DNA from: Halobaculum sp. MBLA0147
GTDB lineage: Archaea > Halobacteriota > Halobacteria > Halobacteriales > Haloferacaceae
Length of the DNA: 64,000 nt
Reading direction: 5' to 3'
NCBI RefSeq assembly: GCF_041361345.1
Contig: NZ_JBGKAD010000004.1
Location: 62,001-126,000 of the forward strand
The notes under the pieces were generated by a model. The model ran no database searches, was not told the DNA's origin, and saw nothing but the letters and a program-made list of their open reading frames with translations. Each line of letters opens with the position of its first letter. Within the stretch, counting starts at the first letter, position 1. Shown here in pieces: positions 4,432 to 55,279 of this stretch. The translations under genes were made by a program, and so were the position numbers.

Positions 4432-5361
4432 ATGCCTGGACATGACGAGTACCGATTCCACGTGGCTCAGAAGGCAGTCGTGGATGTCTACGTCTCAGCC
4501 TCGAATGCCCGGATAGAGTGGCCTTACCGACTCGAAACCGTCGAGGAGGCCCGAGAATCAACTCGCCAGACGGCAGTAGAGTATATCCTCGACTCGGGCA
4601 TGGGCCACGGGACTGCCCCGGCAGAGATTCTCGACGAAGCGGAGCGCCGCGACGCTGACTACGTGATCCCGGACGACCAACTTGCCGACCGGGAGAAGGA
4701 TCTTGACAAAGACGCGATCCACACGACAGCTGACGAGACTGCTCGGTTCCTCGATGAAGCCGCGCGCCGGGATTTTGACGGGACGATTCTGATCCCGTTG
4801 CAGCCGCCCCACGATCACCACTACCGATACCTCTGTTCGCACTTCCCGCGGCAGGCTCAGCACACGCACTTCTGTGTCGGCGGGCTGAAGGGGGCTGCAC
4901 CCGAAGCGCAGATCACGGCAGTGCAGCGCCTGCGTGAGCTGGTCGGCTACGAGGCGTATCTCCACGGGCTTGGCTTCGGCGCTGGACGCGAAGTGGTCGA
5001 CGCGCTGCGAACGACGCCGCGGCTGCTCGACTCTGTCGACATTTCAACGCCACAACAGAACGCTCGCAACGGGAAATTCGCCGGCTCAGTCCGTGATCAA
5101 GTCAACTTTGGCCAACCGCAGAACACCGCGTCTTCAATCGAGATTGGTGCAGTTGGAACGGCAGAACTCGTGGGGATCGCACGGGCTCTCGCCCCGTCGC
5201 TCACTGACCCCCGGAATCTGAACGAGCCGATCAACGCGACAGCAGACGACGACACTCACACCATCACCGGCGAAGCAGACACCACATCGCCGCCGCCTGC
5301 AATCACCAGGCCGGACGACGGGACTGACCACCCATCAGCAGAGCAACTCAGTTCATTTTGA
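4432..5361 (+). CDS. TGT/DpdA-like transglycosylase, paralogue 1
   Basis: 309 residues. Several TGT-superfamily landmarks appear in order: a WPYRL motif (about 31-35), YILDSGM with D54-S55-G56 where TGT has its LDSG substrate-binding aspartate, an IPLQP segment, a GGL loop, a GLGFG phosphate-loop-like turn, and a VDISTPQQNARNG block. Lined up on the NARNG tail, D203 falls on the catalytic nucleophile of the FDCVLPTRNARNG block of true TGTs. The TGT zinc site (CxCxxC plus His) is absent. TGTs swap guanine for a 7-deazaguanine in tRNA; DpdA relatives do so in DNA. The C-terminal 60 residues are disordered and end in AEQLSSF, a weak PCNA-binding motif. It is first of three tandem paralogues. The fold assignment is by eye. 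Confidence 0.65.
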   Translation: MPGHDEYRFHVAQKAVVDVYVSASNARIEWPYRLETVEEARESTRQTAVEYILDSGMGHGTAPAEILDEAERRDADYVIPDDQLADREKDLDKDAIHTTADETARFLDEAARRDFDGTILIPLQPPHDHHYRYLCSHFPRQAQHTHFCVGGLKGAAPEAQITAVQRLRELVGYEAYLHGLGFGAGREVVDALRTTPRLLDSVDISTPQQNARNGKFAGSVRDQVNFGQPQNTASSIEIGAVGTAELVGIARALAPSLTDPRNLNEPINATADDDTHTITGEADTTSPPPAITRPDDGTDHPSAEQLSSF

Positions 5362-5377
5362 CCACTACATCAGGTGG

Positions 5378-5390
5378 TTTGTGCCTGCAG
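5378..5390 (+). promoter_or_regulatory. GTTTGTAC-CAG box (TTTGTGC-CTG-CAG)
   Basis: Copy 4. It starts 27 nt before the ATG at 5405 of the second TGT-like gene. Confidence 0.72.
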
Positions 5391-5404
5391 GAGAGGGCAG
5401 ACAG

Positions 5405-6331
5405 ATGAGCACACAAACTAACCTCTCACCAGAGATTTCCCCGGATACGCCAGGCGACACCGCGAGTGCGAACCCGCTTCCAACGAAGTCGGTCGCGAAC
5501 CGGCGGATGATCGCCTCCCGGTCGCAACTCACGGTGGCCGTGTCGAGCGGTCCAGACACCACGTACCAGTTCGAGCGTACCGGCGACTGGTGGCCGTACC
5601 GAGCGTTGTCGCTCCGCACCGCCATCGATCACCCACAGACGGTTACCCGGACAGCCAAGCAATCGCTCCGGTGGTTCCTCGTCGACACGCGCCCACCAGG
5701 GTATAGTCTCCCTGACGAACTCTTGGAGACAGCACAAACCTACAAGCCGTCACTGACAGTCCCCAACGGGAGATTCTCTGGCGGTCGCGACGCCGCGGCC
5801 TATCCGGTCGACATGGTAGACGCCTTCACACAGCCGTCAGCGCCGCGTCTCGCGCTTCCCATCCCACAACCAGTGGAGTACGTCGCGGCGACGGCTGCGA
5901 ACCAACTCGGCGCCAATACGCAGGCAGAGCCGATCGGTGAACGGTCCCGTCCCGCGGTCATCACGATCCAGTTCGATCCAGACGCCCACCAGTCAGGGAC
6001 AGAAGTCTGGGACGATGTACTCACGGTCGCCGAACAACTCCCTGTTGCGACGAACATCATCCTCCGGTTCCCCACAATCACCACAGAACTCGTCAGACGG
6101 CTTCGAGAGCCGCCGAGTCTCGTTGACGGGATCATCCTCCCACCGAACCCACAGGCGGACGTGAGGGCTCCAGCGACAGCGCAGACCGTGGCTGAGGAGT
6201 ACGACAGTGCGCTCGCAACCGACTCCTCGCCTGCGACACAACTCGCAGCCGATGTGGCCTTCCTGAGTGGGTCGCTAGTCGCGGACGACGCTGTTGAGGA
6301 GGCCCTCTCACACTCCGTGATCCCAGCGTAG
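5405..6331 (+). CDS. Degenerate TGT/DpdA-like protein, paralogue 2
   Basis: 308 residues. It shares the pattern of its two neighbours: WPYRA (about 62-66), FLVDTRPP with D94 where the others have LDSG or IDSD, a TYKPSLTVP stretch matching HADYIFP/RDADYVIP, and LPIPQP matching LIPLQP and PVIQP. The C-terminal half lacks a clear D-x-x-x-x-x-x-NARNG-type block, so the catalytic nucleophile seems to be lost. I read it as a probably inactive member of the same family, which could act as a non-catalytic partner in the way eukaryotic QTRT2 supports QTRT1. That role is inference, and the paralogy itself rests on short motifs and spacing. Confidence 0.5.
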   Translation: MSTQTNLSPEISPDTPGDTASANPLPTKSVANRRMIASRSQLTVAVSSGPDTTYQFERTGDWWPYRALSLRTAIDHPQTVTRTAKQSLRWFLVDTRPPGYSLPDELLETAQTYKPSLTVPNGRFSGGRDAAAYPVDMVDAFTQPSAPRLALPIPQPVEYVAATAANQLGANTQAEPIGERSRPAVITIQFDPDAHQSGTEVWDDVLTVAEQLPVATNIILRFPTITTELVRRLREPPSLVDGIILPPNPQADVRAPATAQTVAEEYDSALATDSSPATQLAADVAFLSGSLVADDAVEEALSHSVIPA

Positions 6332-52583: not shown

Positions 52584-52721
52584 CTACCCGGCGAGCGCAG
52601 CGTTCGCGATCTGCTTCGCCTGCTTCACTGCATCGGGGTCCTCGGTCTCGACCGCTCGCGCGATTATTTCTAGCTCATCACGGGTCAACTGTGCGCCGTC
52701 CTCTGTGACGTACTCTGGCAT
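52584..52721 (-). CDS. 45-residue small protein behind structured leader
   Basis: 45 residues, acidic and helical (LTRDELEIIARAVETEDPDAVKQAKQIANAAL), with a start ATG at 52721. The reading frame has typical haloarchaeal codon use, and the sequence looks like a helix-loop-helix small regulator or antitoxin-like protein. It is preceded, 7 nt upstream of the ATG, by a structured leader (52729-52785) that also precedes the zinc protein starting at 53299. It is convergent with the FIST operon, 8 nt from its stop. Confidence 0.6.
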   Translation of the reverse strand: MPEYVTEDGAQLTRDELEIIARAVETEDPDAVKQAKQIANAALAG

Positions 52722-52728
52722 CACTGAT

Positions 52729-52785
52729 CACTCCCCTCTCGGGGAAGCCCACCCGTGGAGTTGCACCACAGTGCGCTATCGTGGG
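52729..52785 (-). ncRNA. Structured mRNA leader, copy 1
   Basis: Read on the minus strand it ends CCCC-GAGA-GGGG-AGUG a few bases before the ATG at 52721: a hairpin with a GNRA-type loop whose 3' arm overlaps a Shine-Dalgarno-like sequence. Upstream lie GCAC/GUGC and CCCAC/GUGGG pairings. About 46 of 55 positions match copy 2 (53306-53360). Confidence 0.6.
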
Positions 52786-53093
52786 TTGACACGATTCACA
52801 CACCGGATACAGCTGAAGACGTTCGTAGCAAACTCTACATCGGGGACATCGTTCTCGAGTGCTCTAAACGAATGCCTACAGTGAACGCAGATGAATCCAT
52901 ATGTGGCCTGAGGAGGACCCCCGCCGAACCTGTGAAGTTCCAGAGGTAATAACTGGTGATGAGTCACTCGATACACAGAATGCCCATCGACAGACAGGGG
53001 GAAGTTTTGGGCTTCGTCCCCGCCTGCAGTAGGGGCAGAGGACTCACCAAGCCGGGTGGAAATCGAACCTAGGTCAGGGGACTTGTTAGTCAT
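52776..53093 (-). CDS. Zinc-ribbon small protein
   Basis: 105 residues from the ATG at 53093, which overlaps the stop of the upstream gene (ATGA). A C-terminal zinc ribbon has CVHCRHSF and CIRCVN (about 71-100), two CxxC knuckles. The N-terminal part is polar (KSPDLGSISTRLGESSAPTAGGDE), with a HSVYRVTHHQLLPLELHRF strand region. Its 3' end overlaps the first bases of leader copy 1. It is the second gene of a two-gene unit with 53090-53299. Function unknown; small zinc ribbons often bind nucleic acid. Confidence 0.6.
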   Translation of the reverse strand: MTNKSPDLGSISTRLGESSAPTAGGDEAQNFPLSVDGHSVYRVTHHQLLPLELHRFGGGPPQATYGFICVHCRHSFRALENDVPDVEFATNVFSCIRCVNRVNPR

Positions 53094-53299
53094 GCTGTCC
53101 ACTCATTATCGCAGGTTTCAGCACGGCACCGGTACTGTTCAACGTAAGTGGGAGCTCCAACTCCGACACTAGGCCCACCAAACCTGTACTCGCCGACGAA
53201 CTCCCCGATACAGCCGCACTCAGGACAAATGTCCCGGCTGTCGGCAGAGTCGTTTGATCCTGTGTCTCCGCTCTCGCTTGGGCTTGCGTTCCGTCTCAT
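53090..53299 (-). CDS. Zinc-ribbon small protein behind structured leader
   Basis: 69 residues from the ATG at 53299, chosen because the conserved leader ends 6 nt upstream with a Shine-Dalgarno-like GGGAGTG. It has CPECGCIGEFVGEYRF (about 26-41) and CRAETCDNEW near the end, forming a four-cysteine ribbon. A polar SESGDTGSNDSADS tract precedes the first knuckle. It is translationally coupled to the next zinc protein by a 4-nt overlap. Function unknown. Confidence 0.65.
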   Translation of the reverse strand: MRRNASPSESGDTGSNDSADSRDICPECGCIGEFVGEYRFGGPSVGVGAPTYVEQYRCRAETCDNEWTA

Positions 53300-53305
53300 T
53301 GCCAG

Positions 53306-53360
53306 CACTCCCTCTCGGGACACCCACCCACGGAATTGCACCGTGGTGCGCTAGCGTGGG
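53306..53360 (-). ncRNA. Structured mRNA leader, copy 2
   Basis: Minus-strand leader with CCC-GAGA-GGG-AGUG near the ATG at 53299, a GCACC/GGUGC hairpin and a CCCAC/GUGGG pairing. Compared with copy 1, base changes in the arms keep the pairing (GCACcacaGTGC versus GCACCgtGGTGC, as read on the + strand). Confidence 0.6.
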
Positions 53361-53395: not shown

Positions 53396-55255
53396 TCAGT
53401 CTGCTATCGCACCTCCGGCCGAAGCAGAACTGTCCCGGCGTTCGTACTGAATCTCAAAGCCGTTGTCGCGGATCTCGATCAGTCGATCAGAGAAATCGGC
53501 AGCTTCGTCGTCGGTCAGGCACAGGATGTGAGTCCCAGAGTCGGTATCAAAGGCGTCGGTCCCGGTCCCGTGCATCAGCCGGCCAACACGCTGGGTCTCT
53601 TGGCGCCGTGACGACCCCTGACACTGAGCTTCGATAGCCCAGTCGAGATCAGGAATCGACAGTCCTTCGTCGGCAACGCGAGACACGACGGCAACTGGAT
53701 TGTTTTCGATCAACTCGCTCCGCTCGTCGTCCGGCGTCTCCCCACTCACGAACGGGACATCGAGCCGATCAGCGAGTCGCTGGCCATCCTCCAAGGTCTC
53801 GGCGAAGACGATCCCTTTCCCCGGCTTCCGGTCTGCCAGACGGACCACATCGTCGAACTTCTGCTTCTGGGTCCGGTACCGATAGACTAGAATATCTGGC
53901 ATCGTGATCCAGCCCTCCTCGACGAGTTCCAGCCAGTCCACCGACACGGGGACGCCTGTGAGCGCGAAGATGTAGCTCTCACGGCCATCCTCCCGACACG
54001 GCGAGGCCGTCAAGCCGAGCCGATAGTCCGTATCAAGCAACGCCAGTTCGCTGAACTTGTCCGCCGCGATGTGGTGAGCTTCGTCGAAGATGACCACCTT
54101 TGGAGCGTCGTCACCGCGGAACTCAGAGATGTTATCACTCCGGCAGAGATATTGATAGGTCTCGACGGTCCACTCCTCGGGGTCGGTAACCATCTCTTCA
54201 ATGTCCGTCTCCCACTGTTGTTTCAGTGTCCGATTCGGGACGACCACCAACTTCTCGCCGATGATGCGATCGCCCATGACCAAGCCAGTGAACGTCTTCC
54301 CAGCGCCCATCGGCCAGGGAAGCGTCACCTGGCCCCACTCCTGCCACTGATCCCAGGCCTCTTGCTGGTAGGGCCGGAGGTCAACCCCACCCGATGCCCC
54401 TCTGATGTCCTCGGGATCGATTTGCTCAGGCGAGAACGGAAGGTTTCCGCCGTCGATCAACTCCGCGATGACATCGAACGTGGAGTCATCAGAGACACGA
54501 ATTGTCGTCTCGTCGACCCGCTCTTCAGCTTCATCCTCAAACGATGACTGCGCGCGATCAGCATCAGCCTCAGATTGGAACTGAAGCAGGTCCCCATCAA
54601 TACGGACATCCTCGTAGTCGGGTTGTAAGTCAATCCGCTCGCGGAGTTCCTGCGGGAGATCGTCGAACAGTCCGATCAACTCGTCGACACGGTACTCGCG
54701 ATAAGCTGGCCCCTTGTGGTGGAGGTGCCCGACTGCAAGGTCCAGAAACCGTGGGACGATCAGACGGTAGTCCCCGTCAGGGCTCTGAGGCGGCGCGAAA
54801 TAGTACGGCTTCGAGGCGAATCCCTCAACATCCTCCTGGTCAAACGACGATAACTCAAGATGGTTCGAGAGTGCTGTTGCGACCTCCGACTGAGCACGGT
54901 AGTCACTCGGGAAATACAAATTCAGATTGCCGGGCTGATCACGGGCTAACTCGTCGCACTCATTAAGTGCCTCGCGGGCAGTCGGGCGTGAAACATCAAA
55001 ATAGTCTGCCACACCTTTGACAGTCAGGTAGGGGCGTGGGACTGCCTCAAGCCGCTGCAGAAGGTCAGTCTCACTGATCGTCCGCCCCGCCTGCGCGTAG
55101 CATGAACCACATACAGCTATAGGTTTTAGCCCCCCATCGGCGCTGGGATCGTTCATCACCTCGAAATCGTCAGTGACGGGAGAAGCACCACACTGCCCGC
55201 ACTCTGATGCTCGCGACAGGACGAGGGAAGCGACCTCGTCATCAACTTCAGCCAT
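53396..55255 (-). CDS. SF2 helicase (XPB-like core) with N-terminal zinc ribbon and HTH
   Basis: 619 residues from ATG 55255, which has a CTTTAAG TATA box 28 nt upstream. A zinc ribbon uses C19, C22, C49 and C52. A helix-turn-helix follows (YLTVKGVADYFDVSRPTAREAL, about 76-97). The helicase core has RPYQQEAWDQW, Walker A PMGAGKT, VVVPNRTL (Ia), FDEAHH (II), LTASPC (III), then GIVFAETLEDGQRLAD, VSRVADEGLSIPD and QRVGRLMHG (VI). The core resembles XPB-type and DEAD/H helicases of phage and plasmid defence or repair systems. The zinc/HTH head may bind a specific DNA site. It could aid replication, transcription or repair; the target is unknown. Confidence 0.82.
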   Translation of the reverse strand: MAEVDDEVASLVLSRASECGQCGASPVTDDFEVMNDPSADGGLKPIAVCGSCYAQAGRTISETDLLQRLEAVPRPYLTVKGVADYFDVSRPTAREALNECDELARDQPGNLNLYFPSDYRAQSEVATALSNHLELSSFDQEDVEGFASKPYYFAPPQSPDGDYRLIVPRFLDLAVGHLHHKGPAYREYRVDELIGLFDDLPQELRERIDLQPDYEDVRIDGDLLQFQSEADADRAQSSFEDEAEERVDETTIRVSDDSTFDVIAELIDGGNLPFSPEQIDPEDIRGASGGVDLRPYQQEAWDQWQEWGQVTLPWPMGAGKTFTGLVMGDRIIGEKLVVVPNRTLKQQWETDIEEMVTDPEEWTVETYQYLCRSDNISEFRGDDAPKVVIFDEAHHIAADKFSELALLDTDYRLGLTASPCREDGRESYIFALTGVPVSVDWLELVEEGWITMPDILVYRYRTQKQKFDDVVRLADRKPGKGIVFAETLEDGQRLADRLDVPFVSGETPDDERSELIENNPVAVVSRVADEGLSIPDLDWAIEAQCQGSSRRQETQRVGRLMHGTGTDAFDTDSGTHILCLTDDEAADFSDRLIEIRDNGFEIQYERRDSSASAGGAIAD

Positions 55256-55279
55256 ACTCCAAAGGCAGTTCCACACCCA

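Follow-up and report, generated by a model that had tools for sequence, protein, structure and literature searches.

Within the 64,000-nt stretch of Halobaculum sp. MBLA0147 DNA analysed here (the window), two small genes on the minus strand are preceded by the same leader, and the locus raises the question of what this leader does. An initial annotation had read it as a translational switch or RNA thermometer; RNA thermometers are a general class of elements with a hairpin near the ribosome-binding site.

A leader repeated within one gene cluster

On the minus strand the order is a helicase gene, copy A of the leader, a 69-aa protein, a 105-aa protein, copy B and a 45-aa protein. The helicase (superfamily 2, ResIII / ERCC3-like; 53396..55276) lies upstream on the same strand and ends 35 nt ahead of copy A. 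Over part of its length it gave PADLOC matches to PbeA, and over 77% of its length it shares 44.5% identity with a helicase region carried by Halobacterium salinarum plasmids, where the downstream neighbourhood is unlike that of the window; a protein scan of the genome contig collection confirmed no relatives. The first small gene (53090..53299) encodes a 69-aa CxxC protein with no match in Pfam, NCBIfam, PHROG or PADLOC. The second also encodes a CxxC protein (105 aa; 52776..53093); its start overlaps the stop of the 69-aa gene, and its own stop codon (52776-52778) falls within copy B. Behind copy B lies the gene of an acidic 45-aa protein (52584..52721), whose relatives were absent from the 381 class genomes other than its own. 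Protein searches found no relatives for any of the three small genes.

The repetition that had been described was confirmed: the 38-nt cores of copy A (53323-53360, minus) and copy B (52748-52785, minus) are identical at 31 of 38 positions, leaving 7 substitutions, and in shuffles of the window the chance expectation for the two-copy pattern was 0. Each core is followed by 2 nt, a GAGA hairpin and an ATG. The hairpins are real, TCCC-GAGA-GGGA at 53309-53320 (minus; predicted fold, -6.0 kcal/mol) and TCCCC-GAGA-GGGGA at 52732-52745 (minus; predicted fold, -9.7 kcal/mol), and the leader ends where it had been said to end, 6-7 nt ahead of the ATG, with the common GTG ending 6 nt before the start codon in copy A and 7 nt before it in copy B. 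The reported overlap with the ribosome-binding sequence was also borne out, GGAG lying within or adjoining the 3' arm; behind copy A, this arm takes in part of a Shine-Dalgarno-like GGGAG.

The reading frames that run into the two cores resemble each other. From the helicase stop TGA (53396-53398), 14 in-frame open codons lead to ...VNCPR-TAG, ending within copy A, and copy B is entered by the upstream gene's ...VNPR-TAG. This likeness may have arisen by chance or may reflect a shared origin.

The core folds as an acceptor stem stacked on a T-arm

Each core has the layout 5 bp, 9-nt connector, 6 bp and 7-nt loop, with the two 3' strands contiguous. In the sequence of copy A (minus), an acceptor-like stem joins CCCAC (53356-53360) to GTGGG (53323-53327), the connector GCTAGCGCA occupies 53347-53355, and the T-stem, defined by comparing the pairing of the two copies, joins CCACGG (53341-53346) to CCGTGG (53328-53333) around the loop TGCAATT (53334-53340). 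The corresponding parts of copy B (minus) are CCCAC (52781-52785) and GTGGG (52748-52752), the connector GATAGCGCA (52772-52780), the T-stem CTGTGG (52766-52771) with CCACGG (52753-52758), and the loop TGCAACT (52759-52765).

Between the copies, both partners have changed in a compensatory way at two pairs of the T-stem (core columns 15-20 with 28-33), and one partner has changed at another; the T-stem abuts the outer CCCAC/GTGGG helix without a gap. All 11 pairs of the acceptor-like stem and of the T-arm with its 7-nt loop are kept in both copies; with the 7 substitutions placed randomly, full pairing with at least two double changes has a probability of ~0.0015. This two-helix layout is that of an acceptor stem stacked on a T-arm. 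The free-energy z-scores of the single copies were unremarkable (-0.5 to -2.0), and the fold would therefore have been missed by folding energy alone.

Two pairings had been singled out in the initial annotation, and they fared differently. The outer CCCAC/GTGGG pairing is present in both copies and covaries across the wider family described below. The inner hairpin (GCAC/GTGC and GCACC/GGTGC), said to keep pairing despite changes, was not upheld: it has one varying position, on one side only, and pairs in both copies because little in it varies. Among 26 relatives, 70% of its cells pair, which is no better than in shuffles.

A family of elements across haloarchaea

A first covariance model, built from the two window copies alone and applied at E<=0.1, found relatives in 99 of 391 genomes of the haloarchaeal class; further homologues with covariation, whose absence would by the initial annotation have spoken against it, do exist. 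With a refined model, relatives were found in 227 of the 391 genomes (E<=0.01) and 10 full-length copies in this genome (E<=0.1). Copy A scored 59.9 bits with model R1 and 55.3 bits with model R2, and copy B 59.7 and 50.2 bits. In a draw of 236 genomes from the phylum, 22 genomes matched (E<=0.001), all 22 of the same taxonomic order, and the genomes outside that order gave no match at this threshold. Searching the window with filters off revealed no element beyond copies A and B.

The relatives read CCCACGNTGGCGYACGGCGGTTCGAYTCCGYCGGTGGG, with a tRNA T-loop that in most of them is the canonical TTCGAYT. In an alignment of 26 sequences, built from model matches and thus biased towards the model fold, pairing holds in 100% of the cells, double changes occur at 8 of the 11 pairs, and none of 500 shuffles reached the observed score. 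Counts of copies given below refer to 137 distinct copies, that is, 143 model matches less three duplicate loci removed by hand and three identical by key; they are the top-scoring places together with this genome's own, not all matches.

Exact DNA patterns and patterns with up to 3 mismatches recovered only copies A and B from the 391 class genomes. Eight pattern matches in the genome contig collection were all bacterial and close to the number expected by chance, as estimated from pattern length, and were dropped. A plasmid DNA search gave no match and a phage search no meaningful match. The window had 0 Rfam matches above the gathering cut-off, and 0 in the element region even at E<=5. A true tRNA gene was considered and rejected, ARAGORN reporting 0 genes in the window.

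Integration often takes place at tRNA 3' ends, and the two window copies bracket a two-gene unit, as they would if the core were an att-like recombination or integration site, derived from the 3' end of a tRNA gene and duplicated with cassette-like genes. The compensatory changes, however, fall at RNA pairs, no conserved DNA extends beyond the minihelix, and both the orientation and the distance to an ATG or to 5S rRNA are fixed across the 137 copies. We regard such an origin as very improbable.

At least five of these elements, half of the ten found in this genome, lie on the 226.5-kb contig to which the window belongs: those at G000:C4:8403, 26508 and 27713 (L052 and L049 among them) and those of the window.

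The same element precedes 5S rRNA

Directly upstream of 5S rRNA lie 29 of the 137 distinct copies, and these 5S-associated elements are found by the two-copy window model itself (e.g., L032 at 40.4 bits). To avoid model bias, we located 30 5S loci with Rfam and applied a plain pairing rule in a model-independent test. At 22 of the 27 evaluable loci (3 of the 30 were not evaluable), a perfect T-arm and acceptor stop exactly 3 nt short of the Rfam 5S start, compared with 14 of 1800 random places. Four of the five misses (L166, L172, L173 and L174) show, by eye, a GGTTCGA T-loop at the right place, and L177 is without it.

In H. volcanii, tRNase Z processes a t-element that lies directly upstream of 5S rRNA, according to the passages of PMC4326828 that cite Hoelzle 2008 and 2012, and the t-element of Hoelzle et al. 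also appears in passages of PMC4946936, PMC3296008 and PMC7714728. The 5S-associated copies correspond to this published, tRNase Z-cleaved t-element. The window copies resemble it in that a tRNA-like minihelix would stand just ahead of a mature RNA 5' end, with identical strand and 3'-side geometry: in the relatives, 2 nt separate the end of the T-arm/acceptor stack from the 5S-like start, and both GAGA hairpins start at +3 after the helix, the same 2-nt offset as at the 5S loci. They differ in preceding protein genes and in having TGCAAYT and TAGCG where the 5S elements have TTCGAYT and TGGCG, and their cleavage is predicted. This genome has an RNase Z gene (343.6 bits, against a cut-off of 292.95).

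The 5S association weighs on the thermometer reading, in which the ribosome-binding site is masked by the GAGA hairpin until a signal opens it, with the core as sensor. As in RNA thermometers, the window hairpin is near the ribosome-binding site; its 3' arm holds part of GGGAG(TG), and the GGG of GGGAGTG is paired in the predicted fold. Yet the same core stands ahead of 5S rRNA, an untranslated RNA, and its fold is a T-arm/acceptor minihelix, which would be a substrate for a processing enzyme and not a melting hairpin. The distance between core and hairpin is fixed, as expected of a processed end, and the GAGA stem of copy B (5 bp, 4 of them G-C) was judged too stable for ordinary melting. The elements, moreover, lie between operon genes, and the downstream genes are unrelated, a context of processing instead of sensing; nothing was found that points to temperature, salt or metal sensing. 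We conclude that an RNA thermometer is unlikely, and that an added translational effect of the GAGA hairpin is possible. What holds of the switch or thermometer proposal is a conserved structured leader; the mechanism does not fit an element that also stands ahead of 5S rRNA.

Elements between protein-coding genes

An ORF (first ATG with at least 45 codons) begins within 70 nt downstream of 93 of the 137 copies, as against 22% at random places, and 15 of the 137 have neither 5S rRNA nor an ORF. The distances from element to ATG cluster at 20-30 nt; they are approximate because the ORF rule sometimes takes an out-of-frame ATG. In 75 of the 93, a same-strand upstream ORF ends no more than 60 nt away (30% at random), sometimes abutting the element, and no AT-rich promoter-like zone was seen upstream of the 93 gene-associated copies. 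Close upstream ORF ends and the lack of an AT-rich promoter signal together indicate that the elements are mostly intercistronic. Some operons hold several of them (e.g., L125 and L131). The main texts of PMC8303175 and PMC10134880, which concern haloarchaeal processing sites, mention neither tRNase Z nor tRNA-like structures.

A hairpin of -2 kcal/mol or better follows the element in 74 of 80 leaders, 13 of the 93 being too short to be counted. The analysis of hairpin position and Shine-Dalgarno motifs left out 17 of the 93 leaders as too short. An offset of exactly 2 nt between the helix and the start of the hairpin was seen in 26 of 70 cases, compared with 12.7% in shuffles (binomial p 1.8e-7). 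Shine-Dalgarno-like motifs lie 3-13 nt before the ATG in 46 of 76 leaders, and at least 3 nt of the motif are paired in 41 of these 46, a generous count in which GGGG was taken as Shine-Dalgarno-like; this pairing is also in line with the thermometer reading. At L048, in this genome, a canonical element is followed by the identical TCCCCGAGAGGGGA hairpin.

At another locus of this genome (L054:1501-1549, C2), the connector of the t-element holds the whole CCCC-GAGA-GGGG hairpin, which occurs inside elements as well as after them. Four loci (L028:1539-1640; L043, minus, after 1501; L084; L091) have a second conserved stem-loop, with the loop CTTTCCT, ~40-60 nt downstream of the element, and an ORF start ~105-114 nt after the element. 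Such loci may hold a longer leader made of two parts, or else a small RNA.

The genes downstream of the elements are unrelated to one another. By a regular-expression label for an N-terminal motif, 57 of the 93 ORFs resemble exported proteins; scanned examples matched TafE/TafA fimbrial models (below the curated cut-off), DUF1102 or a SipW-type signal domain, and others were plasmid or unknown small proteins. This content bears on a further alternative, that the element is a tRNA mimic through which a bound protein, whether an aminoacyl-tRNA synthetase, a ribosomal protein or an elongation factor, exerts feedback control, much as at the E. coli thrS operator. The T-arm mimicry beside a start codon is clear, but the element lacks both an anticodon and the arm that would carry one, it is also found ahead of 5S rRNA, and the downstream genes that were scanned are of fimbrial-like, plasmid or unknown type, not genes for synthetases or ribosomal proteins. 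We find feedback control of this type quite improbable.

The window copies are a divergent variant

Both window copies have the loop TGCAAYT and the connector TAGCG. A TGCAA loop occurs in 0 of the 135 other copies, TTCGACT or TTCGATT being present in 127 of the 137, and the connector GG is missing from only two other copies, both with shortened connectors. The combination of a canonical T-loop (TTCRANY) with a connector GG is nearly universal in the relatives here and is not given as a defining trait in the passages of the texts cited; it is absent from the window copies (2/137), which have TGCAATT and TGCAACT with AG. With this non-canonical loop and connector, we term the window copies a divergent variant that would work like a t-element, as distinct from proven members of the class of tRNase Z substrates.

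We take the loop changes to be U55 to G and G57 to A in tRNA numbering. The T-loop is often needed by tRNA enzymes, and G18 contacts U55 in tRNA. In both copies G/U has jointly become A/G, which hints at a co-changed contact between the D-like connector and the T-loop; this G18-55/G19-56-like contact was judged from a tabulation of loops and connectors, an antiparallel pair count being no test of a parallel contact. The change was possibly a single event, since copies A and B are related.

Given the deviant loop and connector, the window copies could be poor or altered substrates. Carried further, this would make them decayed: once-cleaved t-elements whose recognition was lost with the T-loop U55 to G and connector G to A changes, and which now serve as a spacer or Shine-Dalgarno hairpin. 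The deviant residues are indeed confined to the two window copies among the 137. Against decay, 11 of 11 pairs survive 7 substitutions, the loop change is common to both copies, and the spacing to the hairpin and the ATG is kept; we likewise think decay unlikely.

A different T-loop variant, ATCGTTC, was seen at L043, L050, L109, L163 and L167, where loop positions 1 and 5 are swapped from T/A to A/T. It looks as if a T54-A58-type contact covaries.

A proposed role in RNA processing

We consider it likely that the window copies are divergent t-elements, tRNA-like minihelices that serve as intercistronic RNA-processing signals. The haloarchaeal family to which they belong probably marks RNA for cutting by tRNase Z. 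In the model that we propose, the helicase gene would be co-transcribed with the small-protein genes, and each minihelix would have a short connector where a tRNA has its D and anticodon arms. The stacked T-arm and acceptor would be recognised by tRNase Z, which would cleave 2 nt beyond the helix on its 3' side. In tRNA numbering, cleavage by this enzyme falls 13 nt past the T-loop; here, 11 paired nucleotides plus 2 nt place the predicted cut 13 nt from the T-loop, as in tRNA. The predicted sites lie between 53321 and 53320 (copy A) and between 52746 and 52745 (copy B), and cutting there would parallel the making of the 5S rRNA 5' end. The mRNA released downstream would have the first paired base of the GAGA hairpin as its 5' end, its translation would rely on the neighbouring Shine-Dalgarno sequence, and the 5'-terminal hairpin could protect the processed mRNA, tune initiation, or both. 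Co-transcription, tRNase Z cleavage (possibly with RNase P on the 5' side), protection and the function of both divergent copies are what we infer from the arrangement. A 5' cut by RNase P at copy B would damage the upstream mRNA, since the copy contains the upstream gene's stop codon.

Comparable arrangements exist in organelles. Mitochondrial transcripts are punctuated by tRNAs (Ojala 1981, as cited in a passage of PMC10941002): tRNA structures lie there, too, between the genes of a polycistronic RNA, and cutting would free the mRNAs. The present element differs in being archaeal and a minimal tRNA-like element, with no true tRNA gene and with cutting that is predicted. tRNA-like structures at the ends of plant mitochondrial mRNAs, linked to PRORP cleavage in the same passages of PMC10941002, are alike in that an mRNA end is set via tRNA-processing enzymes; PRORP acts there, whereas here a 3'-side cut by tRNase Z is predicted to make a 5' end.

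A broader reading, on which we are evenly divided, is that tRNA-like minihelices are a general, horizontally spread punctuation of mRNA in Halobacteria, with tRNase Z cutting each downstream cistron into its own mRNA with a 5' hairpin, and with the window as a variant in which the D-like/T-loop contact has co-changed. The punctuated operons would comprise fimbrial-like, SipW-type export, plasmid and viral genes. If this is true, many archaeal mRNAs owe their form to a housekeeping tRNA enzyme, tRNA mimics split operons as in mitochondria, and every new 5' end bears a protective or regulatory hairpin. Unequal expression within haloarchaeal operons could then be explained, exact and testable cleavage positions would follow for hundreds of genomes, and a missing RNA family would be supplied, the window copies being without an Rfam match.

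Two IMG/VR viral contigs have t-elements between genes (L144:6237-6276; L145, minus, near 5355-5405), right after a stop codon and ~15 nt ahead of an ATG. Haloarchaeal viruses seem to use t-elements too.
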